From Pseudemcibacter aquimaris (GTDB lineage Bacteria > Pseudomonadota > Alphaproteobacteria > Sphingomonadales > Emcibacteraceae), in NCBI RefSeq assembly GCF_028869115.1, contig NZ_CP079800.1, positions 310,001-374,000 on the forward strand: a stretch of DNA of 64,000 bases, read 5' to 3'. The notes beneath the pieces are model-generated. The model saw nothing but the letters and a program-made list of their open reading frames with translations. It was not told where the DNA came from and did not search any database. The position numbers were made by a program, and so were the translations under genes. Below, piece by piece: positions 23,917 through 54,920 of this stretch (the stretch's first letter is position 1; each line of letters opens with the position of its first letter).

Positions 23917-24009
23917 TTATTATGATCTTATAATATTAGACTTGTCGTTTTAAATATGCTCGGTATTATATGTTTCGCAAGTAACAAAATACAAGACGGA
24001 AAATTACTT

Positions 24010-24636
24010 ATGAAAGAATTAGAATTTGCCTCACTCCTATGTTCGCGTCTTTGCCACGACTTAATCAGTCCTGTGGGTGCGATATCAAACGGTATTGAAA
24101 TTCTAAGTGATGAAGATGATGAAATGATGCGCGCCGAAGTTATGAAGCTTCTGGAATTAAGCGCTGGACAAACATCAAACCGTCTTAAATTTTATAGACT
24201 TGCTTTCGGTGCCGCAGGGGGCATCGGGGCACATGTTCCAATTCGTGATGCCAAAAACGCGACCGTTTCATTATTTGAAGGCACACAAATCAACCTTGAA
24301 TGGGAATCCGAGGTTGGTGAAATGGAAAAAAGCGCTCTTAAGGTTCTGCTAAACGTTATATTGGTGGCTAGTGAAACATTGATTCGTGGTGGCGACTTAA
24401 TTGTTAATATTTCTGTGGCCGGTGAAAAGCTAAATACGGAAGTTACCGTTAAGGCGGACCGTATTATTTTCCAAGACAAGGCAAGAGAGATGATTTGCGG
24501 TGAAGTTGCTGAAATGGAAGCTGATCCAAAAATCGCGCCGGCATATCTTGCGGCAAGCGTTGCTGCAGAGTTTGGAAGCAAAATTGAATATATTTCTGAC
24601 GAAGAAAACAGCTTTACATTAAAGGTTGTCTTATAA
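24010..24636 (+). CDS. chpT: ChpT, histidine phosphotransferase of the cell-cycle phosphorelay
   Basis: 208 aa from ATG at 24010. The frame is open from 23956, but family members start just before the ASLLCSRLCHDLISP block. His in LCHDL is the phospho-acceptor, followed by a degenerate HATPase-like domain. ChpT passes phosphate from CckA to CtrA and CpdR. Here it sits directly before the che operon, with ctrA just after that operon, so all of the phosphorelay except cckA and cpdR is clustered. Confidence 0.9.
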   Translation: MKELEFASLLCSRLCHDLISPVGAISNGIEILSDEDDEMMRAEVMKLLELSAGQTSNRLKFYRLAFGAAGGIGAHVPIRDAKNATVSLFEGTQINLEWESEVGEMEKSALKVLLNVILVASETLIRGGDLIVNISVAGEKLNTEVTVKADRIIFQDKAREMICGEVAEMEADPKIAPAYLAASVAAEFGSKIEYISDEENSFTLKVVL

Positions 24637-30814: not shown

Positions 30815-31519
30815 TTAACCTGCTTCAGCGACCGAAGAACTGTCTTCGTCCGGATCACGTAGCACATAACCTCGTCCCCAAACGGTTTCGATGTAATTCT
30901 CGCCACTGATAGAAGCGAGCTTTTTACGCAGCTTACAAATAAAGACGTCAATGATCTTAAGTTCTGGCTCATCCATGCCACCATATAGATGGTTTAAGAA
31001 CATTTCTTTTGTAAGTGTTGTTGTTTTGCGCAAAGAAAGAAGCTCAAGCATTGCGTATTCTTTACCCGTAAGGTGTACGCGTTGGCCGTCAATATCAACC
31101 GTTTTCTTATCAAGATTTACGGATAGTTTTCCTGTACGTATAATTGATTCAGCGTGCCCTTTTGAACGGCGAATAATCGCCTGAATACGTGCAACGAGTT
31201 CTTCTTTATAGAATGGTTTTGTAAGGTAGTCATCAGCACCAAAGCCAAGGCCCTTAACTTTGTTTTCAAGCTCTACCATGCCGGAAAGAATAAGAATTGG
31301 TGTATTCACTTTCGACATGCGTAATTTTTTCAAAACATCATAGCCGTGCATGTCCGGCAAGTTTAGATCAAGCAGGATGATGTCGTAATCATACAATTTT
31401 CCAAGATCAATACCTTCCTCTCCCAAGTCGGTACTGTAAATATTAAAACCTTCAGCAGAGAGCATCAGCTCAATACTTTTTGAAGTGGAAGGATCATCTT
31501 CTATGAGTAAAACCCGCAT
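30815..31519 (-). CDS. ctrA: CtrA, master cell-cycle response regulator
   Basis: 234 aa. Receiver with Asp51 ([13 protein letters not shown]) and an OmpR-type winged-helix DNA-binding domain ([31 protein letters not shown]) that is nearly invariant in Alphaproteobacteria. CtrA binds TTAA-type boxes and controls cell cycle, flagellar and chemotaxis genes. Several TTAACCAT half-sites lie just upstream, consistent with self-control. It ends in Ala-Glu-Ala-Gly. Divergent from fliI across 332 bases. Confidence 0.97.
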
Positions 31520-31851: not shown

Positions 31852-33196
31852 GTGCATACCTTACAAAAAGAGATAGAACGACTCCAGTCAACAAAGGTTT
31901 ATGGCCGTGTATCTGGTATTCAAGGTTTATTGGTTGAGGTCGCTGGCGCTTCCAGAAGCTTAAGCATTGGTTCACGTATAAATATTCAATCACGAAATGA
32001 CAAAATGATCCCGTGTGAAGTGGTTGGGTTTAATTCCGATAAAGCATTATTAATGCCATACACCATGATCGAAGGTGTTGGTGTCGGCTGCAAAGCGTTT
32101 GTGGATACTGATACCGCCCATGTACATCCTTGCGAAGCATGGCTTGGTCGTGTGGTTAATGCCATGGGTGAACCGATTGATGGCAAAGGGCCGATTAAAT
32201 ATGGCCCAGAATCCTATCCAATCAGAAGTGGGCCACCACCAGCACACATGCGTGGCCGGGTACGCGGTAAAGTGGATTTAGGTGTGCGTTCCATCAATAC
32301 ATTTGTCACATGCTGTAAAGGGCAACGGATGGGAGTGTTTGCGGGTTCCGGTGTTGGTAAATCTGTACTACTTTCCATGTTTGCAAAATATACGGCATCC
32401 GACATCACCGTTATTGGCTTGATCGGTGAACGTGGACGTGAGGTTCAGGAATTTATCGAAGATGATCTTGGTGAAGAAGGTTTAAAACGAAGTGTGGTTG
32501 TGGTTGCCACATCAGATGAAACAGCCCTCATGAGAAGGCAGGCGGCTTATCTGACATTGGCGATAAGTGAATATTTCCGTGATCAGGGACGTGATGTTCT
32601 TTGTTTAATGGATAGTGTAACCCGTTTTGCGATGGCACAGCGTGAAATTGGTCTTGCGGGGGGGGGAACCACCGGCAAGTAAAGGATATACACCAACCGT
32701 ATTTTCAGAGCTTCCGAAACTATTGGAACGCGCTGGCCCAGGTACAAATCAGGGTTCAATAACAGGATTGTTCACAGTGCTTGTAGAGGGTGACGACCAT
32801 AACGAACCAATATCAGATGCGGTGAGGGGTATTTTGGACGGCCATATTGTGCTAGATAGGTCCATTGCTGAACGGGGGCGTTTCCCAGCCGTAAATATTT
32901 TACGTTCCGTTAGCCGTACATTACCCGGCTGTAATAATGATGATGAAAATCAGTTATTACGATTGGCCCGGAAATATATGGCCGATTATAATGACATGGA
33001 AGAAATGATCAGACTTGGTGCATATAGGCCCGGTGCAAACCGTGAAATTGACGAAGCCATCTATTTCCATCCGGAATTAGAAGGGTTTCTTGCACAAAAT
33101 AAAGAAGAACAAAGTAATTTGGCTTCTGGATACGAGTTGTTAAGTAATATATTGCATAATCAACCTCAGTTCGAAAATACTGATTCTGAACAATAG
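31852..33196 (+). pseudogene. fliI: FliI flagellar export ATPase, frameshifted
   Basis: Reads as 276 aa from GTG at 31852, then leaves frame at nine G (32658-32666) and stops at 32682. The family sequence continues in the next frame ([17 protein letters not shown]) to 33196. With eight G the product would be about 447 aa, normal for FliI, with Walker A GVGKSVL and [15 protein letters not shown]. FliI powers the flagellar type III export. The break removes the end of the catalytic domain and the C-terminal domain. Sequencing error, true mutation or phase variation remain possible. Confidence 0.9.
32658..32666 (+). repeat. Nine-G homopolymer at the fliI frameshift
   Basis: Nine consecutive G where the frame requires eight (or eleven). 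Such a tract is prone both to replication slippage and to sequencing miscount. It is unusual for this AT-leaning window. Confidence 0.95.
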
Positions 33197-36187: not shown

Positions 36188-36955
36188 TTACAACTTTTTG
36201 GCAATTTCAATCACATTCTCACCCGCTTTACATTGTGGGTACTTGCTTAATAGCGGTGTTTGAGAACGGATTGCCTGCGCGACATGTTTGTCCCTCACAA
36301 TAACGCCAAGCAGCTTTGGTGTTAGATTTAAAAAGCTTTGGCAGACTTTATTGATTTTATCAAAGGCACGCCGTCCTTCGGTTTGATCTTCTGCCATGTT
36401 AACGACGATATTAATTTCCGCCTTTTCATTGCGCATTCTGTAAAGCTTGATAAAAGCATAAGCATCCGTAAGCGATGTTGGGTCAGGTGTAATAATCACA
36501 AGAATTTTGTCTGATGCACGTGCAAGTGTCATTACGGAATTTTCAACACCAGCACCAAGGTCCATAACGGTATAATCATATTCCTGTGAAATGCCGCTGA
36601 TATCTTTGCCCAATGAAATCAAGCTTTCCATGGTGAGGGATGCAAGTGCCCCACTGCCGGATTGACCTGAAATGACATCAAATGAAAGGCCGGATTCAGT
36701 TTGCGGGTAAATAGCTTCGAGCATGCTTATTTCGCTTGAGATAACTTGGCCCAAGTCATTTTCGGGCATGAGCCCAAGTTGAATGTCCACATTTGCAAGA
36801 CCAAAATCACAGTCAAAAAGAAGCGCTTTTTTACCGCGTGATGCAAGAGCCTGACAAAGAGTGGCGGCGAACCATGTTTTACCAACACCGCCTTTGCCTG
36901 ATGCCACTGTCACAAGCATTTTCGTCAAATCGTTATTTTGTGCCTGATCATTCAT
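36188..36955 (-). CDS. flhG: FlhG/FleN, MinD-like flagellar number regulator
   Basis: 255 aa from ATG at 36955, just after the flhF stop; an upstream TTG at 36973 would overlap flhF. Deviant Walker A ASGKGGVGKTW near residue 20, MinD-type Asp switch DCDFGLANVDIQLG. FlhG antagonises FlhF to set flagellar number and place. Intact. Confidence 0.9.
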   Translation of the reverse strand: MNDQAQNNDLTKMLVTVASGKGGVGKTWFAATLCQALASRGKKALLFDCDFGLANVDIQLGLMPENDLGQVISSEISMLEAIYPQTESGLSFDVISGQSGSGALASLTMESLISLGKDISGISQEYDYTVMDLGAGVENSVMTLARASDKILVIITPDPTSLTDAYAFIKLYRMRNEKAEINIVVNMAEDQTEGRRAFDKINKVCQSFLNLTPKLLGVIVRDKHVAQAIRSQTPLLSKYPQCKAGENVIEIAKKL

Positions 36956-36959
36956 CTTA

Positions 36960-37991
36960 TCAATCTCTTTCAAAGCTAATATTATTCTTTTTCGGGATTT
37001 TGGTTAGAAGCCTGGATAGCTTCATACTATCCAGTGTTTCAATCCCATCGCCAAGGTAAGGTGTGATACCAACACCAGCGAAAGCCATCTTTCCGCTTTC
37101 TGCAATAGAAAGCAGGCTTGCGTACCTACGCGCGACATCAAGTTTTGTTGTGATAAACCTTTTGACGCCAAGTCCGGCATATGTTTCGCCCACTTCTCTG
37201 GCTTCATAGGGGTCCATGCCGGCGGGCACCACCAAAATGGCTTCGCAGTTCGTGGTTTTTAAAAAGGAATGCAGCTCTGACATTTCTTTTTTGCTGTATG
37301 GGTTATACCCCATGCTATCGATTAGAATGACATCGCTTTCTTTTTCGGCCGTTTTGATGGCGATATCCAAGTCTTCTGGTTTTTCGGCTTCGGTCAGGCT
37401 AACGTCAAGGACACTTGCGTATCCTTCAAGTTGGGCGACGCCACCGGTTCTGAAAACATCAGTGCTGATGAAATGGACTTTCTTTCCACCAATCACATAA
37501 TGGCTTGCGATTTTCGCCGTGGTGATTGTTTTACCAGCACCGGGTGGGCCGATTAACATAATCGGGCGATTGGGCACTGTGTCTGTGATCGGTTCGAAAT
37601 GGAAAATATTATCAAGGGCCGTGGCCAGCGTCAGTTCCGGTGTTTCGCATTCAAGGGATTTACCAAGATCCATCAGTTTCAATTGCAAACCGTCAGCAAA
37701 ACCATGATGTTTTAAGCTGCTGACCAGATCGAGTTTATCATCCGTTGAATATTGTTCATCCAGTTCACGAAGTGATTTTTTAACCGGGGCTGGTTTTGGT
37801 TTTGGCGCAGGGTTCACATGCGGGTTTACACGCGGGGCTGGTGCCTCAATCGCGGCCGTGATTTTAACCGTTTTAACACCATTGATAATCTGTTCTGTAG
37901 TATCAATGATAACAGCATCATCACCAAGTTTCTTTCGAACCTGCTTTAATGCTTCTTCCATACTTGGTGCGCTAAAGATTTTCAGCTTCAT
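36960..37991 (-). CDS. flhF: FlhF, SRP-like GTPase for flagellar placement
   Basis: 343 aa from ATG at 37991 with AGGCAGGG upstream; the frame runs back to a GTG at 38027, which is unlikely. N-terminal B domain (KLKIFSAPSMEEALKQVRKKLG), Pro/Lys linker, NG GTPase domain with GPPGAGKTITTAKIA and STDVFRTGGVAQL. It recruits early flagellar parts to the pole. Intact, four bases before flhG. Confidence 0.92.
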   Translation of the reverse strand: MKLKIFSAPSMEEALKQVRKKLGDDAVIIDTTEQIINGVKTVKITAAIEAPAPRVNPHVNPAPKPKPAPVKKSLRELDEQYSTDDKLDLVSSLKHHGFADGLQLKLMDLGKSLECETPELTLATALDNIFHFEPITDTVPNRPIMLIGPPGAGKTITTAKIASHYVIGGKKVHFISTDVFRTGGVAQLEGYASVLDVSLTEAEKPEDLDIAIKTAEKESDVILIDSMGYNPYSKKEMSELHSFLKTTNCEAILVVPAGMDPYEAREVGETYAGLGVKRFITTKLDVARRYASLLSIAESGKMAFAGVGITPYLGDGIETLDSMKLSRLLTKIPKKNNISFERD

Positions 37992-38054
37992 TTTATTGGC
38001 CCTGCCTTTTTCCAAAATGAGAACCACTTATATCAATAATATTCTGAAAAAGCA

Positions 38055-39827
38055 TTAAATCTGTCCCAAGGTTTTAATCTTAACTTTCGGATGAATTTCA
38101 TTTTGTGAAAGCACCACAGTTGCGGGACGGAAACGTTCGATAATGGATCTGACATATGGTCTGATCATCGGGCTTGTTAGCAGAACCGGAAGCTCACCTG
38201 CATGGGCCTGATCCTCGAATGTCATTCGGACCAGACCGATAAATTCCTGTAGCTGACTTGGCGCCATGGCGAGTTGTTTTTCCTCGCCTTGTCCAACGAG
38301 TGATTCAAGGAAGTTTTGTTCCCATTCCGGTGACATGCTGATAAGGGCAACGACACCTTCCGCATCGGCATTGTCATGGCTAATCTGACGCGCAAGTCGG
38401 GTTCTGACGTGTTCTGTTACCATGATAATATTCTGTGTGTATCCGCTTGCTTCTGATATCCCTTCCATAATGGTTGGCAGATCACGGATTGATACACGTT
38501 CACCCAATAAATTTTGCAATATACGCTGTACACTGCTTTGTGAAATTTGCGACGGGATCAAATCAGCAACAAGTTTTTGATGTTCTGATGGCAGATCATC
38601 CAGCAGTTTCTGTACCTCCGCATAAGATAACAGTTCAGACATATTGTCTTTAATCACTTCGGTAATATGGGTGGTGATCACGGTTGCGGCATCGACGACC
38701 GTATAACCGCGGAATGATGCTTCTTCCTTCATGCTTTGATCAACCCAAACGGCAGGCAGACCAAATGCCGGTTCTGTGGTGGCTTCGCCCTGAATGGCGA
38801 CTTGTTCGCCGCGTGGGTCCATCACCATTAACATATTCGGGCGAATGTCACCCCGCCCACTTTCTGTTTCCTTAAGTCTTACAACATAGGTGGTCGCGGG
38901 TAATTGCATATTGTCCAATATCCGAACGGACGGCATAACAAATCCCATTTCCGATGCCATCTGGCGACGAAGCGCTTTAATCTGATCAGTAAGTTTTACA
39001 CCCGTATCATCATTAATTAATGATAATAGACTGTATCCAAGCTCAAGACGGATCGGGTCAATGGCAAGGGCCGTTGTAATCGGCTCTTCAACGGGCTCAT
39101 CTTCCTCTTTGGTTAAATCTTCAAGGGCCAGAGCTTCTTCGCGTTCGGCTTCCTCGATTTTATTTCTGGCAGCAACAACGCCAGCTGATGCAAGCAGTGC
39201 AGAAAATACGGCAAATGGTAAAAACGGAATACCAGGTAATAAGGAAAGCGCAGCAAGAAGTCCTGCCGTAACATATAAAGCGCCCGGATTAAGTGAAAGC
39301 TGATTAATTAGGGCTTTATCGGTTTTACCTGTAACACCTGCCTTGGTGATTAAAAGACCAGCTGCAACAGATACGATCAGGGCAGGGATCTGGCTAACGA
39401 GGCCATCACCAATGGTTAACAGTGTATATGCATTGGCGGCCGCACTGAATGACATGCCGTTTTGGGCAACACCGATAATAATACCGCCGACGATATTGAT
39501 GAATGTAATCAATAGGCCCGCGACAGCATCACCACGAACAAATTTGGATGCACCATCCATGGCACCGAAGAACGAGCTTTCGTCCTCAAGTTCCTTACGG
39601 CGTGCGCGTGCGGCATCCTCATCAATAAGACCGGATGATAAATCCGCGTCAATTGCCATTTGTTTGCCGGGCATGGCGTCGAGGCTAAAACGCGCGGCCA
39701 CTTCTGCGATACGGCCAGAACCTTTGGTAATAACCATAAAGTTTACAATCAAAAGGATGATGAAAACGATACCGCCTACAATGTAACTGCCACCTGTTAC
39801 AAATGATCCAAAGGCGGCGATTACGTT
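38055..39827 (-). pseudogene. flhA: FlhA flagellar export gate, N-terminal part missing
   Basis: About 590 codons match FlhA from NVIAAFG (codon at 39825) to the end; full proteins are near 690-700. The first ~100 residues, with the first membrane helices, are absent. The best internal start is ATG at 39752 (565 aa). The rest is normal: NFMVITKGSGRIAEVAARF, later helices, and the cytoplasmic domain. Upstream the sequence changes at 39819-39832 into flgE. Without the missing helices the export gate should not work. Confidence 0.88.
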
Positions 39828-40894
39828 ACGATACCTTCTTCATTAACACTAACACCGATCACACTACCGAACTTGGCACCATTTGTTGTTGATGAAATCA
39901 CGGTTGATTCGCCAGCGAATTCTGAAATACCATCACTTTCGCCATCTGTACCTAAGTTAAATGTGATCTGTCCTGGCTCAGCACCACCAGCCCAGTTCAC
40001 TGTAAGCGGTGCAAGCAGCGCAGCGGATGAGGCACCAACATCAATTGTACCGTCACCATTAAACGCGATCTGACCTGATGCAATTTGACCAGTACCGGCA
40101 AGAGTACCAGCTGTAATATCAGCAGCAGGGCTGATGAAAATTTCAGCATTCCAAAGATTGTCAGCTTGTTTCATTGCTGCAAAAGTTACTGTGTGGATAC
40201 CACCTTTTGCATCATAAACCTGAATATTTGTTTGGAAGTCCGGCTGCACACCTTGTGTTGCAGGGATAATGCCTGCTGAAATATCAGCATCATATCCGGC
40301 CATAGAGTTTGCAACAGAGTTTGGATCATAAGTACCACCCGTAATTGATGGGTGAAGTGCTTGTGATGATTGAAGGTTCGCACGGATTGTTACGTCCGTG
40401 GTTGCTTCCGCGGTGATGGTAAAGTTCGATACGTTGATCGGTTCAAGGTTATCAATATTTACCGTTGGTGCATTACCACTTGAATCAAGGGCGTAGCCTT
40501 GTAAATAAAGGCCTGCTGTATTTTGCAGGAAGCCATTGTCATCAGGTGTAAAGGAACCAGCACGCGTATAGGAAATTGTTGAGTCAGCATCTGTGCCGTC
40601 CGGTTGATTGGATACGACAAAGAATCCGGCACCATCGATACTAAGGTCCGTTGCGGATGTGGAACCCTACAATAGGCCCTGTTGACTGATTAAGGCTTGT
40701 GGTTTTGCTTGTACACCACCTGGTGAATACGACGCAGTAGAGTTTGATTCTGTCACAAGAGACGAAAATTTCGCCTGTGTGCCTTTATAACCAACGGTAT
40801 TGATGTTCACGATATTATCGGAAATCATACCCATCGCACTGCTGTTCGCGGCCAAGCCTGATACGCCTGAGAATAGGGATGCGTAAAGACTCAT
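39821..40894 (-). pseudogene. flgE: FlgE flagellar hook protein, amber codon and truncated 3' end
   Basis: A single frame from ATG at 40894 to 39821 is broken only by TAG at 40667-40669 (codon 76, after SQQGLL), where CAG/Gln would restore it. The frame before reads MSLYASLFSGVSGLAANSSA and after reads STSATDLSIDGAGFFVV, both FlgE. The match ends at VNEEGIVT, then a stop supplied by the flhA joint. The C-terminal ~80-100 residues, including the terminal coiled-coil needed for assembly, are missing. Confidence 0.88.
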
Positions 40895-40973: not shown

Positions 40974-41663
40974 TTATTCTGTGCTTGCTTCTGCAGGCGC
41001 GGGTTCTTGTTTGATTTCTCTTACGACCAATACATTGTTTGGTGAGGTGAGAATTCCATTAGCGGCGAGCAAAACGTCGCCATTATATTTTTCAACTCCT
41101 GTGACTACTCCTTTTGAGTAAACAGAGTGACTGATTGCTTCCTCATTCCCTGAAAGCGGTTCGATTTCTACTCGGTAAATACCAGGTTCTGATCCTTGAG
41201 GAACCGGCCATTTTAGCTCATGTGTTCCTGCTTTAAGTTCACCGTTGAAACTATCCACTTCAAAGCCGTTCTCGTCTCTGATTGTGATTTTATTGGTACT
41301 TGCTGATGCATCCAGCGTGTATTCCCAATTGACTGTGCCGTCTTCTGCGACACCGGCTTTGTTGGTTTCAACGATTACTTCGCGACCCAGATAATTTACG
41401 GCATTGCTTGCTTTGTTGGCATTATTCTGATTTACGATTGCTTCCAAATTCTGGTTGGTTGCGATGGCTTGTTCTACGCCGGTAAATGCCACAAGTTGCT
41501 GTGTGAATTGGTTGGAATCCATAGGGGAAAGCGGGTCTTGATACTGAAGTTGCGTTGTTAGCAGACTTAAGAAATTATCAAAATCCTTTGCCAGCGTTGC
41601 TGCTGAATTTCCAGCGGCACTTTCTTGTGCCTGTTGTTGTCCTACGATTGCGCCAATATCCAT
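40974..41663 (-). CDS. flgD: FlgD, hook-capping protein
   Basis: 229 aa. N-terminal LAKDFDNFLSLLTTQLQYQDPLSPMDSNQFTQQL signature region (residues ~25-60), then the FlgD Ig/Tudor-like domains (GTHELKWPVPQGSEPGIYRVEIE). It caps the growing hook for FlgE assembly. Intact; between fliK and flgE on the same strand. AAAGGA precedes the start. Confidence 0.92.
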   Translation of the reverse strand: MDIGAIVGQQQAQESAAGNSAATLAKDFDNFLSLLTTQLQYQDPLSPMDSNQFTQQLVAFTGVEQAIATNQNLEAIVNQNNANKASNAVNYLGREVIVETNKAGVAEDGTVNWEYTLDASASTNKITIRDENGFEVDSFNGELKAGTHELKWPVPQGSEPGIYRVEIEPLSGNEEAISHSVYSKGVVTGVEKYNGDVLLAANGILTSPNNVLVVREIKQEPAPAEASTE

Positions 41664-41676
41664 TATACGTCCTTTT

Positions 41677-43605
41677 CTATACGCTTATATCCAGGGCTTG
41701 ATTAGAGTAGGCCATGCGAATTTCTTGCACGCTTGCCATATCCATAAATTCATCCATACCCATTTCATCATTTGATGACTGGGTCATGTTTGCAAAATGC
41801 CTTGCGTTATTTTGCTGGTTTTGCTTCATCAATGAGAAGCTCAAATTCTTATTCGAAAGATTGATGCCTGCATCCTGTAATGCTTTTTCAAGCGATGCTT
41901 GATCGCGTTGTAGCATTGATAGTGTTCTTTCATTTTCAACCATCATTGATGCCTGCATTTTACCGTCAGCGGCAAATTCCAGTTTGATATCCACTTGTCC
42001 AAGTTCGGCTGGATGCAAGCGAATGCTGAAATTGTTTAATCCTTTAACAACGTTTTTGTTGATCGCCACTGTGATTTGTTCATTAATCATTTTGGCGCTC
42101 GAAGGCAGATCGGTTTTGGATGTTGCACCGACACTCGAAAGTGTTTTTTGGAAATTTACATCCTGTGCGGCAAGCATGCTGTTGTTCGGTAATGTTGATC
42201 CACCATTTGCGGTCATGCTTTGGCCAAGCGGAGCGTCAAATTTTTGACCGGCTAAGCCCATATCAAGCTGAATATCGCTTTTTTGTGCGTTTAGTAGCGC
42301 TGACTGTGACGCACTATTTTGCATTGCCTGGGCAGCTACATTATTTGCAGAAGAAGCACCTGTAACTTTTGTAGCAGTAACCGAAGAGCCTGACTTTTTA
42401 CCCGCGGATGATGGTCTTGCAGCATTATTCGGGCTTTGTACCACAGCAAACGGAAGTGTTTTTTTGCTTTCCATGGCCACTGTTTCCGGCTGCGGTGCTG
42501 GTTTTTGCATGAGTTCAGCGTTATTGATCTGATCTTTCATGGCTTTTGCCATTGCTGAAACAGATGCGCCGATTTCTGAATGCTGAACTTCTTCATTCAC
42601 CAATGGGGCAGGGGTATTAACCGCTGCGTTTTGTTGGTTTTGTGGCTTTTGTTGTTCTAAAACTTTTGCAACTTCTTCTGCAATGCCGCCACCATTTGAA
42701 ACGGGTTTAACAGTTTCATCAGCTTGGCTTGCTGCAACTATGCCAGTGTTTTTCGGATCGGTTGCCGCATTATTAACGGGCAATTGTTCTGAAGTTTCTA
42801 TAACAGGTTTCGTAGCGGTTTTTGTCGAAGCAGGTGCAGCGTTATTTGTTGCGATTGTTGGTTCCTGAACTTTTGTTTCTTCAGGAATTTCAGTCGTATT
42901 TGCCGCAAAAACAGGCGCTTTTTCCTGTGCATTCACATTGTTGTTTTCAAGCGCGGTTTGAAGGCCGTTACCTGCATTTGGTTTACTTTGACCATTGTTA
43001 TTTTGTTCAGCATTTCCACCAGCTTCTGATGATGATTTCATAACCGCATTTAGTGCGGTTTGTGGCACAGATTTATTTTCAGAATTTTCAGTGTTTATAG
43101 CTGAATTTTGGTTGCTGACGACTGCTGCTTTTTCTGGTGCAACTTCAGAAATCAAAAGATCTTTTGTGGTTAAGCCGGGTTTATGATCAGCGGGCTTTTG
43201 TGTACTAGCGTTTTCAGATACGACATTTGTTTCATTTTCTGAATTTTGCTGTACTGGTTTTTCGCCTGTTTCAATGTTTTGTTCTGCGTGCGCCTGCTGA
43301 TCATTAGGGTTATTGTTATTATCTTCTGATGCAGGGCGTTCTTGAGGGGTATTTTGATCATTGTTATCTGCACGTGTGTTATTTGCGTTATCCGTTACAG
43401 GACGTTCGTCAGATACACGCTCATTTTCAAGATGATCGGTGAATGATTTTTCACGAACCTCGTCATTTCTATCATTTCTGGATACAGAAGAACGTTCCTG
43501 ACTGTAATCCGAATTTACAGATGGCGCATCAGGGCGACTGATGCGGTCATCTGCACGGCTTACTGTCGGAAGCTCTTTAAATAATATGTCAACGCCAGTT
43601 GTCAT
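41677..43605 (-). CDS. fliK: FliK, hook-length control protein
   Basis: 642 aa. A long Asn/Gln/Glu/Ala-rich disordered region is followed by the conserved C-terminal domain near residues 525-600: NFSIRLHPAELGQVDIKLEF and ALQDAGINLSNKNL. FliK measures the hook and switches export specificity. Driven by the sigma-54 promoter at 43648-43661. flgD starts 13 bases downstream. Confidence 0.88.
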   Translation of the reverse strand: MTTGVDILFKELPTVSRADDRISRPDAPSVNSDYSQERSSVSRNDRNDEVREKSFTDHLENERVSDERPVTDNANNTRADNNDQNTPQERPASEDNNNNPNDQQAHAEQNIETGEKPVQQNSENETNVVSENASTQKPADHKPGLTTKDLLISEVAPEKAAVVSNQNSAINTENSENKSVPQTALNAVMKSSSEAGGNAEQNNNGQSKPNAGNGLQTALENNNVNAQEKAPVFAANTTEIPEETKVQEPTIATNNAAPASTKTATKPVIETSEQLPVNNAATDPKNTGIVAASQADETVKPVSNGGGIAEEVAKVLEQQKPQNQQNAAVNTPAPLVNEEVQHSEIGASVSAMAKAMKDQINNAELMQKPAPQPETVAMESKKTLPFAVVQSPNNAARPSSAGKKSGSSVTATKVTGASSANNVAAQAMQNSASQSALLNAQKSDIQLDMGLAGQKFDAPLGQSMTANGGSTLPNNSMLAAQDVNFQKTLSSVGATSKTDLPSSAKMINEQITVAINKNVVKGLNNFSIRLHPAELGQVDIKLEFAADGKMQASMMVENERTLSMLQRDQASLEKALQDAGINLSNKNLSFSLMKQNQQNNARHFANMTQSSNDEMGMDEFMDMASVQEIRMAYSNQALDISV

Positions 43606-43839: not shown

Positions 43840-44075
43840 ATATATAAGGGGTAGCAAAGAGCGAAGAAAATGCGAGATGTGTAAAAGTTCGTTCTTATAA
43901 AATTATAAAAAACGTTTATTAACAGTTGGTTATAAAGAAATTATGGAAAAAAATATAACGGATAATAATAAAGTGAATGTGGCTAGAAACGCTGCAGATA
44001 CGCGTAATTTTTTCCTGTTCGGGCAACAGTTGCCTATCCTTTTAATGAATGTTTGGCGAATTGGAGACGTGTAAA

Positions 44076-46190
44076 ATGACTATTAGCACAATCATCAATA
44101 ATTCACTGACCGGTATTTTTACAAGCCAAGCCGCGCTTCGTACAATTACGGATAACGTATCCAACGTAAATACCGAAGGTTATGCCCGTAAGGTCGTAAG
44201 GCTTGATCCAAAAATTACAGGGGCACAAGGGGCCGGTGTTGATATCACATCCATCGAACGTGTTGTTGACAACTTTCTTGTGAAATCTTCATATGAAACC
44301 AGCGCTGAAGCATCAAGATACGAGCTAGAAAATACATTTCACGCTCGAATGCAGGCATTGCTTGGTCGCCCGGATGTGAATAGTTCATTAAGTGGTAAAA
44401 TGAATAACATTTTTACCACTATGTCTGAACTGGCACTTAATCCGCTTTCAACTATTTTAAAAGAGTCCACCGTTACTAGTATCAATTCATTCGGTACCGA
44501 ACTTGGAATGATTGCGGAAAATATCCAAAGCATGCGTCTGGATGCCAGTACCCAAATCAGTGAAACAATTGAAAAGATTAACGGTCTTGTAAGACGCGTT
44601 GAATATCTTAATCCGCTAATTGTGAAAGAAACTGTGACAACCGGTGATGCTGGTGCTCTTATTGAGCAGCGCTCACAAGCCTTAAGCGAGCTTTCAAAAT
44701 TAATTGATATTAATATTGTCGAAGTTGGTAACAATAAAATCGAAATTAACACCAAATCAGGCTTAAGCTTACTTGGTAATGTCAGACGTGAATTACAATA
44801 TAATACACCTGGCCTTGTTAGTTCTGCGACACCATTCCCGCCTATTACGGTTCATGATGTTGATCCGACAAGTGGTAATGTAACACCAACCGGTCTGACA
44901 TTAGATGGCAATATTTCGTCTGGTGAGATTTATGGTCTGATGCATCTTCGTGATGTTGAACTGGTCGCAATGTCAGAAGAGCTTGGCGCGTTAGGTGCTG
45001 CAGTGATGCATGAATTTAATAAAGTTCATAATGAAAATACGGCTGCGCCGCCACCCAATAGTCTAACAGGTATTAATACAGGAATGCTTGCAACAGACCC
45101 GCACCGTTTTACGGGGGAAAGCACATTCGCGATTACAGATGCAAATGGAAATTTGGTGGACAGCGTAACCATTGATTTTGGTGTAACAGGTCCTAACTTT
45201 TCTGATGTGATCAGTGCCGTGAATGCGGGGCTTGCTGGTAATGGTTCCATGGCTCTTACGAACGGTGTTTTAACATTTTCTGCGACCAATGGGTCAAACG
45301 GTGTTTCTATTTCGCAAGTCGCTGGTAACGAAAGTGACCGTGCTGGTAAGGGTTTCTCACATTTCTTTGGAATGAATGATTTGGTGCAAGCTCGTGAAAT
45401 GGGCATGTATAAAACAGGTATTGATGCAACTGATGCACATGGTCTTGTCGGCGGCAGTACTATCAACCTGGAAATTAAGGGTGAGGGTGGCATCGATCTT
45501 GCCAGTTATACTTATACCGTAACTGCCGGACAGACTTATAACGATATACTGACGGATCTTAATGCAAGCTCGCTTGGTGCTTATATGAATTTTGCCATTA
45601 ATGCGGATGGTGAATTTACATCCACACCGAACGCCGGCTATCCGGAAGCAAAATTACATGTGAAATCAGACAGTACATCACGGGGTACAACAGCGGTTCC
45701 AATTTCAGATTTCCTTGGTATGGATAGCAGATATAAAATTGATGCTGCTTTTGATTTCTCGGTCGTGGATAGAATTAACGACGATGTAAATTTACTTTCG
45801 CTTGCCCGTTTTGATGATACGGCCCTTGTTGGTGGGACAGCCATTAGTTTCGGTGATCAACGCGGTGGTATCGCCCTTCAGGATATTGAAAATGCAACTG
45901 TGAATATTGCGGCGGCTGGCGGATTAAATCAGTTTAACAGCTCGCTTGGTCAATATGCGGCAGCTGTGCTTGCTGATTTTGGTTTCCGTGCCCAACTTGC
46001 GGAAAGTTTTGGCGAAGATAGTAATGTGCTTCTTGGTGAAATTAACCAACGCATTGAAAGTATTTCCGGTGTTAACGTCGATGAAGAGCTCAGTAACATG
46101 ATCGTTTTTCAGAATGCCTATAGTTCATCAGCCCGTATGTTGAATGTGGCAAAGGAAATGTATGACGAGCTAATCGGGTTAATTCAGTAA
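44076..46190 (+). CDS. flgK: FlgK, hook-filament junction protein
   Basis: 704 aa from ATG at 44076 with GGAG nine bases upstream; an upstream in-frame ATG at 44049 has no site. N-terminal rod signature (ALRTITDNVSNVNTEGYARKVV) and C-terminal VNVDEELSNMIVFQNAYSSSARML. It joins hook to filament with FlgL. Intact, as are FlgL and the promoter, so the late genes have not visibly decayed. Confidence 0.93.
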   Translation: MTISTIINNSLTGIFTSQAALRTITDNVSNVNTEGYARKVVRLDPKITGAQGAGVDITSIERVVDNFLVKSSYETSAEASRYELENTFHARMQALLGRPDVNSSLSGKMNNIFTTMSELALNPLSTILKESTVTSINSFGTELGMIAENIQSMRLDASTQISETIEKINGLVRRVEYLNPLIVKETVTTGDAGALIEQRSQALSELSKLIDINIVEVGNNKIEINTKSGLSLLGNVRRELQYNTPGLVSSATPFPPITVHDVDPTSGNVTPTGLTLDGNISSGEIYGLMHLRDVELVAMSEELGALGAAVMHEFNKVHNENTAAPPPNSLTGINTGMLATDPHRFTGESTFAITDANGNLVDSVTIDFGVTGPNFSDVISAVNAGLAGNGSMALTNGVLTFSATNGSNGVSISQVAGNESDRAGKGFSHFFGMNDLVQAREMGMYKTGIDATDAHGLVGGSTINLEIKGEGGIDLASYTYTVTAGQTYNDILTDLNASSLGAYMNFAINADGEFTSTPNAGYPEAKLHVKSDSTSRGTTAVPISDFLGMDSRYKIDAAFDFSVVDRINDDVNLLSLARFDDTALVGGTAISFGDQRGGIALQDIENATVNIAAAGGLNQFNSSLGQYAAAVLADFGFRAQLAESFGEDSNVLLGEINQRIESISGVNVDEELSNMIVFQNAYSSSARMLNVAKEMYDELIGLIQ

Positions 46191-46211: not shown

Positions 46212-47129
46212 ATGACACGCGTATCAAGTTTCGGACAACAGCAGGTAATGTTAAATAGCCTGCTTAATAACCAATCCAAATTATTCGAAGATCAAAAACA
46301 GGTTGCGACGGGTAAAAAGTTTGAAAGTTATAAAGAGGTTAGTGGTGACTTAAGCACGCTTCTTGGCTCTAAAAACGTTCTTGACCGCACGACAAGTTAC
46401 ATCAATGCGGCGACACATGTGAAACGTAATCTTGATGTTAATAACCTTCAGCTTGAAAATGTCATTGGTAAGGCGGAAGATATTCGCCATGCGATGCTTG
46501 AAAGTATTGCGCAGGATAAAACATTTGTACTTATGGATACAATTGAAGAAGCCTTTAGTTCAATGATTGCATCCTTAAATACTGATATTGGCGGCGTCCA
46601 TATTTTCAGTGGTGGTCGCACAGATGTTGATCCGATTGTTGGAACTGAATTAAATGATCTTGTTGCCGCTGCCTCTGCGTCAGATATGTTCCAAAATGAT
46701 GGTCGTAAGGCCATTGCAAAAATTGGTAAAAATACGGATATGGAATATAGCTTGCTTGCGGATGAAGTTGCAGAAGATTTATTCGCAGCAATTAAAACCA
46801 TTGCAGATTTTAATAACCTGACCCCAATTCAGGGTGATCTGACACCAGCGCAGAATGCATTCATTGAAGGTGAGCTGGCAACTTTTGACGCGGTGATCGA
46901 AGATTTGCGTATCGTTCTATCTAGTAACGGTATGCGCTATGGCCGTGCGGATGAACTGCTCGAGGAGCATCAGGAACAAGAAAACTTCATGTTAAATTTC
47001 ATTTCCGATATCGAAGATGTGAATATGGCCGAAGCGATCACTCGTGTGAATAATGATCAAACGGCGCTTGAGGTTTCTTATAAGCTAACCAGTGAATTAT
47101 CCCGATTATCGTTACTGAACTTCATTTAA
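46212..47129 (+). CDS. flgL: FlgL, second hook-filament junction protein (flagellin-like)
   Basis: 305 aa flagellin-family protein: N-terminal FGQQQVMLNSLLNNQSKLFEDQKQVATGKKF coiled region and C-terminal ISDIEDVNMAEAITRVNNDQTALEVS. It sits 21 bases after flgK. No filament flagellin gene is in the window; the FlgK neighbour and flagellin-type ends without a hypervariable insert make FlgL the best call. Confidence 0.88.
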   Translation: MTRVSSFGQQQVMLNSLLNNQSKLFEDQKQVATGKKFESYKEVSGDLSTLLGSKNVLDRTTSYINAATHVKRNLDVNNLQLENVIGKAEDIRHAMLESIAQDKTFVLMDTIEEAFSSMIASLNTDIGGVHIFSGGRTDVDPIVGTELNDLVAAASASDMFQNDGRKAIAKIGKNTDMEYSLLADEVAEDLFAAIKTIADFNNLTPIQGDLTPAQNAFIEGELATFDAVIEDLRIVLSSNGMRYGRADELLEEHQEQENFMLNFISDIEDVNMAEAITRVNNDQTALEVSYKLTSELSRLSLLNFI

Positions 47130-48596: not shown

Positions 48597-49388
48597 TTAC
48601 GTGCTGCTTTTCTTCGGATGACTAATATCAATCGTATTTGCTATCCATTCAATATTCAAGAAATCACCTATATCTTGCCAAGGTGTTGTGTGGACGTCAT
48701 TTGTAAAAGAGGAAGAGACAATTATATTTGAACTATTATACTTAAAATTCACTCTTTTTTCCGTTTTAAATAAAATTCCATATTCAAAAATCGAAATGAC
48801 TTCCGCATTTTTACATTGAAAAGTTACTTCATTGCAAATCACCCAAGGCTTTTTAATTTCATCATATAAAAGAATGCTTCCTTTTTCAGCACCATAAGTG
48901 AATGATAAAGCGAAAAATGCCGGAAGCCAATGAATTGCATTTCTTAACGCCACGTTATTATCAATATAGTTTTGCGCAGGTGTTAACATGCTTAGTCCAT
49001 ACTTTAACCATATAAGCATTGAAAACCACCCCAATACGCTGAGCCACGAATGTAGTTTAAGTATCATTAAGAATGCAGCAAAGTGCATTAATATATCAAA
49101 AAAAATTGCTTTATATTTTGTTGAATTAATAGCACTATCTTTTGCGATACTATTTTCTTCTGCTGCAGACAACCCAATATAGAAAGCAAGTGCTTGTGAT
49201 AAAAATACATATGGTGTTAACTTTAAAAAAATCATTATATGATCTTGCAAACTCAGTATTGTGAAAAACTGGAAGCCTATCTCTTGGTAGAATCCAACTT
49301 GATATGACATAATTAGACCAATTGATATTAATGATCCCCATTTTAATAAATCAGAAATGGAAAAATCTGTTTCGTTTTCTTCACTCAT
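48597..49388 (-). CDS. Unrecognised membrane protein beside tRNA-Met
   Basis: 263 aa from ATG at 49388 with AAAGG seven bases upstream. I do not recognise the family. There are about four or five hydrophobic segments (about residues 15-35, 45-65, 90-125, 140-165), then a soluble C-terminal domain of ~100 residues with two Cys (ICNEVTFQCKN). Base composition is AT-richer than its neighbours. It lies between the tRNA and a truncated permease, which suggests acquired or rearranged DNA. It starts 15 bases past the permease stop. Confidence 0.65.
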   Translation of the reverse strand: MSEENETDFSISDLLKWGSLISIGLIMSYQVGFYQEIGFQFFTILSLQDHIMIFLKLTPYVFLSQALAFYIGLSAAEENSIAKDSAINSTKYKAIFFDILMHFAAFLMILKLHSWLSVLGWFSMLIWLKYGLSMLTPAQNYIDNNVALRNAIHWLPAFFALSFTYGAEKGSILLYDEIKKPWVICNEVTFQCKNAEVISIFEYGILFKTEKRVNFKYNSSNIIVSSSFTNDVHTTPWQDIGDFLNIEWIANTIDISHPKKSST

Positions 49389-49402
49389 AAATCGACCTTT
49401 GT

Positions 49403-50056
49403 TCAATAAGTGTTTGTTAAAAAATTGTCAGAATTAATTATTACTTTCATGCTCTTGATTTTCGCCATCCAGCTTGTCTTGGCATTTTCCATAGAGCCGT
49501 TTGCAATACCGGCAATGATAAAAAAAGCTGCAGAAAGAATGAATAGAATAATTACTAAGTTTTGAAATTTTGCTGCCGTTCTACCGCCGCGTAAATTTAT
49601 CCATGTGAGGATGGCGCTGCCGCCTACGCCAATTAATAATGAATAAACGGTAATTGGTGCGTCTAAAAATTCATAAAGTGCTGTGCCTTGGCTGAGGGCA
49701 GGGAAAATGGCACCGAGTATCCAGGCGGTTGAGACTGCCTCAAAGGCGCATGCTGAAATAAAAATTAATGCTAAAAACCAGCCCATTGCATATGAAATTT
49801 CTGTGCCAAATCCTTCGTATGCGTAAACAACTTCGCCCCCGGATTGTGGGAACATCATCCCCATTTCACCGTAACATAAACCAATGATCATCACGGCGAG
49901 GGCACCCACAAAAAATGCAATAGAAGCGCCAAAAGTGCCTGCGCTTTCTATCCATCCGCCGGCGAGCATAATCCAGCCAACACCGACCATAGTACCAAAT
50001 CCAATGGCAAATAATTGATGCAATTTTACGCCTTTTGCCAGTGTATTTGTACTCAT
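49403..50056 (-). pseudogene. APC-family amino-acid permease, truncated
   Basis: 217 aa with the APC N-terminal half: FAIGFGTMVGVGWIMLAGGW, SGGEVVYAYEGFG and about six helices. Family members have ~450-500 aa and 12 helices. Similarity appears to end near residue 195, followed by an unrelated polar tail. In another frame the tail reads a plausible hydrophilic C-terminus DKLDGENQEHESNN and stop at 49434-49436, as if an internal deletion had fused the gene to its own or another gene's end. Probably non-functional. Confidence 0.75.
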
Positions 50057-52467: not shown

Positions 52468-53946
52468 GTGTCTAGGGAATTAAAGATGTTAAAAAAATAT
52501 CTAGATTTATTAAAGAAATGTCATAGTCACCAAAAAGGTGTAACAGCTGTATATTTGGGTATTATGTTACCGATTTTTGTTGGGTTTGCTGGGTTGGCGT
52601 TTGATACGTCTGTTTGGTTTTTACAAAAACGGCATAATCAAAGTACTGTTGATGCAGCCGTAATGGCCGCAGCATTGGAAATTAGAAATCAATTGGATAA
52701 TAACAGCACAGCCACGCAGGCAAGCTTGTCTGCAATTGCAATTGCAGATGCTGCAAATAACGGATTTACTGTTGGCGGTAGCAATTCACTAACTGTCAGC
52801 AGTCCGCCTTCGGCTGGATCATATAGTGGTCAAAATAATTACGTGCATGCGGTAATTTCATCACCAGTAGAAGGGTTTTTCACGAGAGCTTTAGGTTTTA
52901 GTGACGTTATGGTAACGGCATCAGCTACTGCTGGGACACGTGAAATTGTTGCTGGTGGTGGCGGTGGATGTATCGTAGCACTGGATGAATCAGCATCAGG
53001 TGCCCTTATAACAATCGGCACCACAACGATTGATGTGAATTGTGCGCTTTCTTCTAATTCAACAGCTGAAGATTCAGTTATTCTAAGTGGTAATTCAACC
53101 CTAGAGGAATTGGTTTCAGCTATTAACGCAGTTGGAAATATTAAAATTGGTGGCAGCACAGATATCCATGTGGATACAGATGTTAATACGTATACTTCTG
53201 GCACTGATGATCCTTTTCCTGATTTAACTGTGCCTGCGATACCGTCTACTTGTGAAGTAAATGTTGGAAACGGACGAGGTAATTCATTAAGTACGCTTGC
53301 ATCGGATTATCCATCATTTGTCATTGAAGAAACGAACGATAGTGGTGATGTTACAGGTTATACTTTTAAGCCAGGGCGTTATTGTAATACGGGAAGTAGT
53401 AATAACGCCATTGATTTTGGTGGTGAGAATATCACAATGGATACAGGCGTCTATATATTTGATGATGGTTTGAATTTATCTGTTGGCTCCAGCGATAATA
53501 TTTCTGGAACAGGTGTGTCAATCGTTTTAACTGGTGATACTTCATCATCTATTGGTGATGTAAATATTAATGCTGGCGCAACCGTTAATTTGACTCCTCC
53601 CACGGTAGCTGGGGTTGCATCGTGGTCAGCAGAAAATGCGCAATATGCAGGTGTTACTCTTTATGTTGACCGAAATAAAGATTGGGAAAATAATGCCAAT
53701 AAAATTAACGGTGGTGCGAATGTTTTATTAGATGGCGCCGTTTATATGCCATCTCAGGATTTGGAATGGATTGGTAATTCGAATAATGTCGGTGGTTGTG
53801 GAATGTCTGTTAGCGCAACTGCAAAATTTTCAGGTAGCAACGGATATAATCTTTCGTTGACTGAGGCTACATGTACAGCATATGGTATTTGGGACCTAAT
53901 TAATAATAGTGGTACGTCAGTTCGCATTGCGTTGTTGGTTGAATAA
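52468..53946 (+). CDS. TadG-like Flp-pilus-associated protein
   Basis: 492 aa from GTG at 52468 with GAGGAA upstream; ATG at 52486 is an alternative. After a basic N-terminus comes the TadE/G-type helix (GVTAVYLGIMLPIFVGFAGLAFD, residues ~24-46) and VDAAVMAAAL. The rest is a Ser/Thr/Asn/Gly-rich secreted beta region with four Cys pairs in GGGGGCIVAL-type contexts. Likely a surface or pilus-linked minor pseudopilin. The core tad machinery is not nearby. Confidence 0.78.
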   Translation: MSRELKMLKKYLDLLKKCHSHQKGVTAVYLGIMLPIFVGFAGLAFDTSVWFLQKRHNQSTVDAAVMAAALEIRNQLDNNSTATQASLSAIAIADAANNGFTVGGSNSLTVSSPPSAGSYSGQNNYVHAVISSPVEGFFTRALGFSDVMVTASATAGTREIVAGGGGGCIVALDESASGALITIGTTTIDVNCALSSNSTAEDSVILSGNSTLEELVSAINAVGNIKIGGSTDIHVDTDVNTYTSGTDDPFPDLTVPAIPSTCEVNVGNGRGNSLSTLASDYPSFVIEETNDSGDVTGYTFKPGRYCNTGSSNNAIDFGGENITMDTGVYIFDDGLNLSVGSSDNISGTGVSIVLTGDTSSSIGDVNINAGATVNLTPPTVAGVASWSAENAQYAGVTLYVDRNKDWENNANKINGGANVLLDGAVYMPSQDLEWIGNSNNVGGCGMSVSATAKFSGSNGYNLSLTEATCTAYGIWDLINNSGTSVRIALLVE

Positions 53947-53956
53947 TGGGCGTGAC

Positions 53957-54463
53957 ATGATAAGATTTTCTCTTAAAAAATTTACAAAAGATAACAGCGG
54001 CACTTCTGCGTTAGAACTTGCGCTATTGTCGCCAGTGATTATTTTAATGCTTGTAGCTGCGGTTGATTATGGTTCTGCGTATGTGCGGCAAATGGAAATT
54101 ACAAACGCTGTAAAAGCTGGTATTCAATACGCAATGGTGATGAGACCTGTTACAATCACAAACGTTAATGCAGATACGAATGAAGTTACGGTTATTGCAG
54201 ATATTGAATCACTTACTTCTGCAGAAGTGAATTCCCATCTTGCATCGTCATCGAATGATACAACAACAATTGTTTCTAATCTTTATTGTACATGCGGCGG
54301 GACTGAGCAATTATGTACGGCAACTTGTGTTTCTGATTTTGGTGCGTATATGGAAGTAACAGTTTCAGAAACGTTTGTGCCACCACTTTTAAATTATAAT
54401 TGGTTGCCTGATGGATATATTAACTTGTCATCCAGCTCTACCATAAAAATTAATAGTAAATAA
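53957..54463 (+). CDS. TadE-like minor pseudopilin
   Basis: 168 aa from ATG at 53957. The frame is open from 53909 inside the previous gene, but the basic stretch before the TadE helix (NSGTSALELALLSPVIILML) sets the start. Periplasmic domain with a Cys-rich LYCTCGGTEQLCTATC. Ten bases separate it from the previous stop. Confidence 0.8.
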   Translation: MIRFSLKKFTKDNSGTSALELALLSPVIILMLVAAVDYGSAYVRQMEITNAVKAGIQYAMVMRPVTITNVNADTNEVTVIADIESLTSAEVNSHLASSSNDTTTIVSNLYCTCGGTEQLCTATCVSDFGAYMEVTVSETFVPPLLNYNWLPDGYINLSSSSTIKINSK

Positions 54464-54473
54464 TGGACGTTAA

Positions 54474-54920
54474 ATGTTTCAGAAGTTAAGAAAACTTAGA
54501 GAAAGTGAAAATGGAGCTGTTGCTGTAGAATTTGCAATGGTAATTCCTGTTACATTGGCATTGACGTTTTTTTTCTTTGAACTTTGCCGAATAGTTTTCT
54601 TGCAAAATGTATTAAGCTATTCAGCTGCTCAAGCATCCAGATATGCCATGGTGCATTTTGATAATACGAGTGTTGACAGCGATTATCTTGATGGGCTTGA
54701 AGCTGACATCAAGACATATGCTAAGCGTTCTATGTATTTAATTGATGACAATTTGATTTCCGATTTTACTATCACTACTGCTGATCCCGATGACGAAGGG
54801 CGAAGAAATGTTGATATATCTATCAGTTATTCATATTCTCCTATGATGCCACTTTTGTCCGAACTAGAAGTGACAATGAAAGGTGAGTCAAAAGCATTCC
54901 TTGTGCAAGGTATTGATTAG
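54474..54920 (+). CDS. TadE/TadF-like minor pseudopilin
   Basis: 148 aa with NGAVAVEFAMVIPVTLALTF at residues ~13-32, the TadE helix with its conserved Glu, and a small periplasmic domain. Third gene of the cluster, ten bases after the second. It ends next to the convergent DMT gene with no clear terminator. Confidence 0.82.
   Translation: MFQKLRKLRESENGAVAVEFAMVIPVTLALTFFFFELCRIVFLQNVLSYSAAQASRYAMVHFDNTSVDSDYLDGLEADIKTYAKRSMYLIDDNLISDFTITTADPDDEGRRNVDISISYSYSPMMPLLSELEVTMKGESKAFLVQGID

Follow-up and report, generated by a model that had tools for sequence, protein, structure and literature searches.

A decaying flagellar system in Pseudemcibacter aquimaris, with a deletion joining flgE to flhA as one lesion among many

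The window, the whole 64,000-nucleotide stretch of DNA analysed here, contains a flagellar island in which flgE runs directly into flhA, each gene lacking one of its ends. How did the two genes come to meet, and does the joint stand alone? The window belongs to a genome (G000) assembled as one contig of 3.37 Mb, with an estimated completeness of 100% and contamination of 0.45%. We compared it with 12 congeners, 11 of which are near-complete; the remaining one (G012) is 53% complete and uninformative on loss.

The flgE-flhA joint

An earlier note on this DNA had claimed that similarity to FlgE ends and similarity to FlhA begins exactly at TTACGTTACG (39821-39830), and alignment to relatives confirms it (Table 1). 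Relative to the flagellated congener G009, 103 residues of FlgE and 110 of FlhA are missing, close to the hundred or so estimated for each protein in that note. The window has a single copy of TTACGTTACG, a tandem TTACG on the plus strand. After dinucleotide shuffling the mean is 0.03 copies, and 3 of 100 shuffles contain one.

Read on the minus strand, flgE ends in ...GGT ATC GTA ACG, followed directly by a TAA at the joint, and the sequence of flhA continues in another frame as ...AAC GTA ATC GCC GCC TTT GGA. A FlgE-FlhA fusion protein is therefore ruled out. The hexamer GTAACG (39824-39829, minus strand) can be assigned to either parent, as V-T (GTA ACG) in flgE or as (G)-N-V ((G)GT AAC GTA ATC) in flhA, and the intact flhA of G009 has GTAACG at the equivalent place. 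Judged from these reading frames, a 6-bp microhomology at GTAACG is a likely but unproven route for the deletion; its length depends on inferred ancestral third codon positions, with a strict minimum of 0 bp. If the 6-bp reading holds, each parent would have supplied one CGTAA, the two copies sharing GTAACG, and the tandem TTACG would not be a leftover double repeat.

Table 1. Features of the window island and the FliN-domain paralogue. Plain numbers are window positions; residues of FlgE and FlhA are numbered as in G009.
Feature	Position	Strand	Observation
chpT (CckA-ChpT-CtrA relay)	23956..24636	+	open
ctrA	30815..31519	-	open; 96-98% identical to five flagellated congeners
fliI, frameshifted	31852..33196	+	two ORFs in two frames; single frame in G009 (451 aa) and G010 (447 aa)
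nine-G run at fliI frame shift	32658..32666	+	longest G run 3-5 in the matching 162 bp of 7 relatives
MinD-family ATPase beside flhF	36188..36973	-	open; name flhG inferred
flhF	36960..38027	-	open frame
flhA remnant	38055..39829	-	aligned over residues 111-699 of 699, first 110 absent; frame differs from flgE
flgE remnant	39824..40894	-	residues 1-356 of 459, 3' end deleted; aligned by tblastn with the intact G009/G010 proteins
premature TAG in flgE, codon 76	40667-40669	-	Gln in 6/6 congener FlgE
flgD	40974..41663	-	open
fliK-like protein	41677..43605	-	open; name inferred from position and similarity to G009/G010; NCBIfam match absent
flgK	44049..46190	+	open
flgL	46212..47129	+	open
FliN-domain paralogue	G000:C1:682119-682385 (L125:10119-10385); G001 L130:9348-9614; G009 L126:6088-6345		

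A deleted block of motor and export genes

The earlier note had read the joint as a deletion. In all five flagellated relatives measured (G006, G008, G009, G010 and G011), the endpoints lie 7,466-7,502 bp apart, separated by a block that comprises the 3' end of flgE, sciP, fliF, fliG, fliH, fliN, a motA-like gene, flbD and the 5' end of flhA. In both G009 and G010, flgE is followed in turn by a 102-aa gene, fliF, fliG, fliH, fliN, a 253-aa gene, flbD and flhA. NCBIfam identifies the 102-aa gene (in G010) as SciP, the inhibitor of CtrA and, like it, part of a circuit essential in Caulobacter. The 253-aa gene has PomA/MotA-type stator matches below the NCBIfam cut-offs and a match to Pfam MotA_ExbB. 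FlbD, FliN, FliG and FliF score above their NCBIfam cut-offs, FliH below its own.

The intact congeners share the fliF-fliG-fliH/flbE-fliN-flbD-flhA order with the fliF operon of Caulobacter, where fliF-fliG-flbE-fliN-flbD precede flhA, as the earlier note had stated, and where there is a FlbD regulon. G009 and G010 differ from that operon in two additions, sciP after flgE and before fliF, and the motA-like gene after fliN and before flbD. In G000, by contrast, the block is deleted.

Relocation of the missing genes was rejected, as whole-genome searches found no second FlhA or FlgE and no FliG, flagellar FliN, FliF, SciP or FlbD orthologue. An intact flgE or flhA elsewhere, the finding that would have told against the earlier note, did not turn up. 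The FliG and FliF profiles have no match in the entire G000 genome, and SciP is likewise unmatched throughout. The best match to the FlbD of G010 is 42% identical, compared with 87-91% in G006, G008, G009 and G011, and was not taken as an orthologue. FHIPEP has a single match in the genome, over profile positions 76-656 of 657, which is the beheaded flhA of the window and not a full-length FlhA. There is no second flgE among the five matches to Flg_bb_rod, a short profile that missed flgC and is thus not airtight. The FliMN_C search returned two matches only, FliM at 1,029,331 and an 88-aa FliN-like paralogue beside lipB, so that FliM is present and the flagellar FliN was not found. The suspicion that switch genes had gone with the ends of flgE and flhA is thus borne out. 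FliH and the motA-like gene, together with flgA and flgH, were sought within the fetched stretches of G000.

The stand-alone FliN-domain protein (85-88 aa), next to a lipB-like gene, is little changed, with matches also in G001, G003, G005 and G007, which have no FliF. Because it is kept in congeners without FliF, its role is probably non-flagellar.

Lesions in two flagellar clusters

The window island carries further damage. The TAG at codon 76 of flgE is a second lesion in that gene, absent from the earlier note. The frame of fliI breaks in a run of nine G, and this frameshift may be a sequencing error in the homopolymer. It could also be read as phase variation, with the G9 run switching the flagellum off reversibly and the isolate caught in the off state. 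Such a switch would be in keeping with a second run, of eight G, at the 3' terminus of a MotB-like gene (L120, G000:C1:1032285), the only other G/C run of at least eight in the 204 kb of G000 examined. We find this scarcely credible: a 7.5-kb deletion that takes FliF and FliG is irreversible, seven relatives have no such run in fliI, and two G/C runs of this length per 204 kb are roughly what base composition leads one to expect, by a rough estimate.

A second flagellar cluster lies at ~1.017-1.044 Mb, 0.68 Mb from the window island. Here flgG ends at residue 91, flgB and one flagellin contain nonsense codons, and flgA and flgH are unmatched in the fetched stretches. Near 1,021,160, two flagellins that converge on each other have been truncated and now meet tail to tail. 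Several other genes separate these flagellins in G009 and G010, among them, in G009, genes for a polysaccharide-biosynthesis family protein and a cytidylyltransferase. With the nonsense codon and truncation of flgE, the truncation of flgG and the nonsense codon in flgB, neither the hook protein FlgE nor the rod proteins FlgG and FlgB are intact. In addition, cckA has a TAG at codon 472.

At G000:C1:1025491-1026483, two small ORFs take the place of the flgH, flgA and remainder of flgG found in relatives, and G001 has two different ORFs there. Outside the flagellar genes, window positions 48597-50056 hold the N-terminal half of an amino-acid permease (217 aa) and, after a 4-base overlap, a 269-aa ORF without family match. 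This is possibly a frameshifted non-flagellar gene; it has no orthologue in the compared stretches and was kept out of the lesion count. A Tad-domain gene and two TadE-like genes at 52468-54920 are perhaps part of a Flp pilus locus.

All four nonsense codons fall at positions where relatives have glutamine, in 6/6 congeners for FlgE, FlgB and CckA, and in three relatives' flagellins for the flagellin, where others differ. Stop-codon reassignment was considered and rejected: TAG ends 14 and TAA 120 of the 164 long ORFs examined, and deletions are present too.

Only genes for which G009 and G010 each have an orthologue entered the lesion count, so that wholly absent genes are left out of both sets. 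Breaks affect 6 of the 39 flagellar rows whose orthologue survives (one flagellin locus is matched twice among them), compared with none of 66 control rows (Fisher p = 0.002). One of the original 67 controls, flagged at the edge of the fetched DNA, was dropped, and one DksA-like row, not flagged, was set aside as ambiguous. The single broken row among ten for chemotaxis and regulators is cckA. Several independent inactivating lesions are thus confined to one functional system, the flagellar rows plus cckA, as in a pseudogene island, with positions 48597-50056 as one possible non-flagellar exception. In the second cluster, 26 of the 29 rows are not flagged as broken, which counts against the reading as decay.

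We considered that the 7.5 kb might be present in the organism and have dropped out of the assembly through a false join, in favour of which there is the short repeat at the joint. This is very improbable. One misjoin leaves the nonsense codons in flgE, flgB, the flagellin and cckA unexplained, as well as the losses in the second cluster, and the controls are unbroken. Furthermore, the assembly is a single contig with an estimated completeness of 100%, and FliF, FliG, SciP and an orthologue of FlbD are not found elsewhere in it.

To look for relaxed selection on the genes that remain, we asked in a three-branch comparison with G009 and G010 what share of the amino-acid changes belongs to G000 alone. 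The median share is 0.444 in flagellar and 0.368 in control rows (p = 0.02, one-sided Mann-Whitney test), and pooling of all sites yields 0.413 and 0.390. Tested separately, the 10 rows of the window cluster give p = 0.0003, and the 29 rows of the second cluster reach no significance (p = 0.26). On the branches of G009 and G010 themselves, flagellar and control shares do not differ significantly. The rate shift of G000 fits a recent loss and is, taken alone, weak evidence.

The deletion is one lesion among many in a decaying flagellar system. We are confident in the following reading as a whole. A deletion of 7.47-7.50 kb, probably via GTAACG, joined codon 356 of flgE to codon ~111 of flhA and removed sciP, fliF, fliG, fliH, fliN, the motA-like gene and flbD. 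A flagellum presumably cannot be built when the MS ring, the switch, a full export gate and FlbD are missing. Because none can be built, the remaining flagellar genes of both clusters would decay through nonsense codons, a frameshift and further deletions. This would be an early stage of a loss that is further along in several other species of the genus, with ctrA and sciP gone together with the flagellum. While the joint, the absent genes, the lesions and the state of the congeners are observed, non-motility, the order of events and the repair mechanism are what we infer here.

Flagellum loss and the CtrA circuit in the genus

FlhA and FliF are present in 6 of the 12 congeners, and both are absent from G001, G002, G003, G005, G007 and the half-complete G012. 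Five of the 11 near-complete congeners have no match to FliF, FlhA or CtrA. Outside the genus, FlhA matches were found in 27 of 27 genomes searched, those in G028 and G034 being only 35-36% identical. The losses are incomplete: G003 and G007 retain open flgK and flgL, and G001 part of flgL.

CtrA and CckA were searched at thresholds chosen to shut out paralogues. CtrA (E <= 1e-60) is unmatched in G001, G002, G003, G005, G007 and G012, and also in the flagellated G011. In G011 the conserved part of fliI is already reached at base 848 of the contig that carries the cluster, and ctrA therefore probably lies beyond the contig end. SciP is unmatched in the same five near-complete congeners, in G012 and in G000. 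For CckA (1e-100), only the C-terminal part was found in G001 and G005, with an N-terminal piece (residues 40-140) also in G005, and no match was found in G002, G003, G007 or G012. The survival of chpT without FliF, in G007 and, with an internal stop codon, in G001, indicates no strict tie to the flagellum.

In the three congeners whose islands could be read, these have collapsed with other endpoints, in G001 at both islands and in G003 and G005 at one each. In the counterpart of the window island, G001 has the broken chpT adjoining flgL from residue 103, while the chpT of G003 breaks off near residue 104, with a fliK-like remnant behind it. Because the endpoints differ, the deletions in G000, G001 and G003 look separate. 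A tree of AlaS and RecA, built without G006, in which AlaS was not found, places G000 as sister to G001 (98/97 support). The best tree requires four changes (G012 uncounted) and has several weak branches; the well-supported branches alone force two to three. The flagellum seems to have been lost repeatedly among these relatives, and G000 is at an early stage.

The sister relationship raises the alternative of an old loss common to G000 and G001, which is without FliF and FlhA, with G000 having merely retained more debris. FliF and SciP are unmatched in both genomes, and cckA is broken or truncated in both. We nevertheless consider a shared loss unlikely, since the CtrA of G000 is open and 96-98% identical to that of flagellated congeners (Table 1), most of the flagellar genes left in G000 still have open frames, its rate excess is small and the island endpoints of G001 differ. 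Because CtrA is conserved, most frames are open and the rate excess is small, the G000 branch seems to have been under selection for most of its length.

Returning to a recent decay in G000, we ask what becomes of the regulators. The CckA-CtrA circuit is called essential in Caulobacter (PMC3692519). In this genus, the CckA-CtrA-SciP circuit might serve the flagellum only, and its collapse in G000 might begin with the ring and export genes, sciP and cckA while ctrA and chpT are still open. We put this forward tentatively, as a reading nearly as credible as its opposite. It is supported by the five near-complete congeners that have neither FliF nor FlhA, none of which has a match to CtrA or SciP. 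The missing CtrA match in the flagellated G011, probably a contig gap, counts against it, as does the retention of chpT in the flagellum-less G007 and, broken, in G001.

Repeated flagellum loss is already in print for the Caulobacteraceae (PMC12700997) and the Rhodobacterales (PMC12363192), as far as the accessible text of these sources goes. The former describes convergent loss in Phenylobacterium immobile and Acaudatibacter. As in our genus, the losses there were independent, extended to developmental regulators and took place in lineages that branch from within flagellated groups. However, the available part describes the flagellar genes as completely absent, while here many are in place and some broken, so that a single genus displays the stages. 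The sporadic losses of the fla1 cluster in the Rhodobacterales likewise concern a whole flagellar cluster lost independently, but the accessible portion of that account describes no intermediate stages and no loss of ctrA or sciP alongside the flagellum. A clade treated in PMC10008586 retains flagellar genes, according to the part of the source at hand. Within a limited search of the literature, we saw no description of a comparable half-decayed flagellar island.

Loss of flagella is common, yet usually the end states alone are visible. This genus combines flagellated species, one complete part-way genome and advanced losses whose scars lie at two shared chromosomal sites. The order in which genes disappear, and whether CtrA control outlasts swimming, thereby become open to test. 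If the circuit does serve the flagellum only, the genus would be a natural series for following how a master regulator becomes dispensable.
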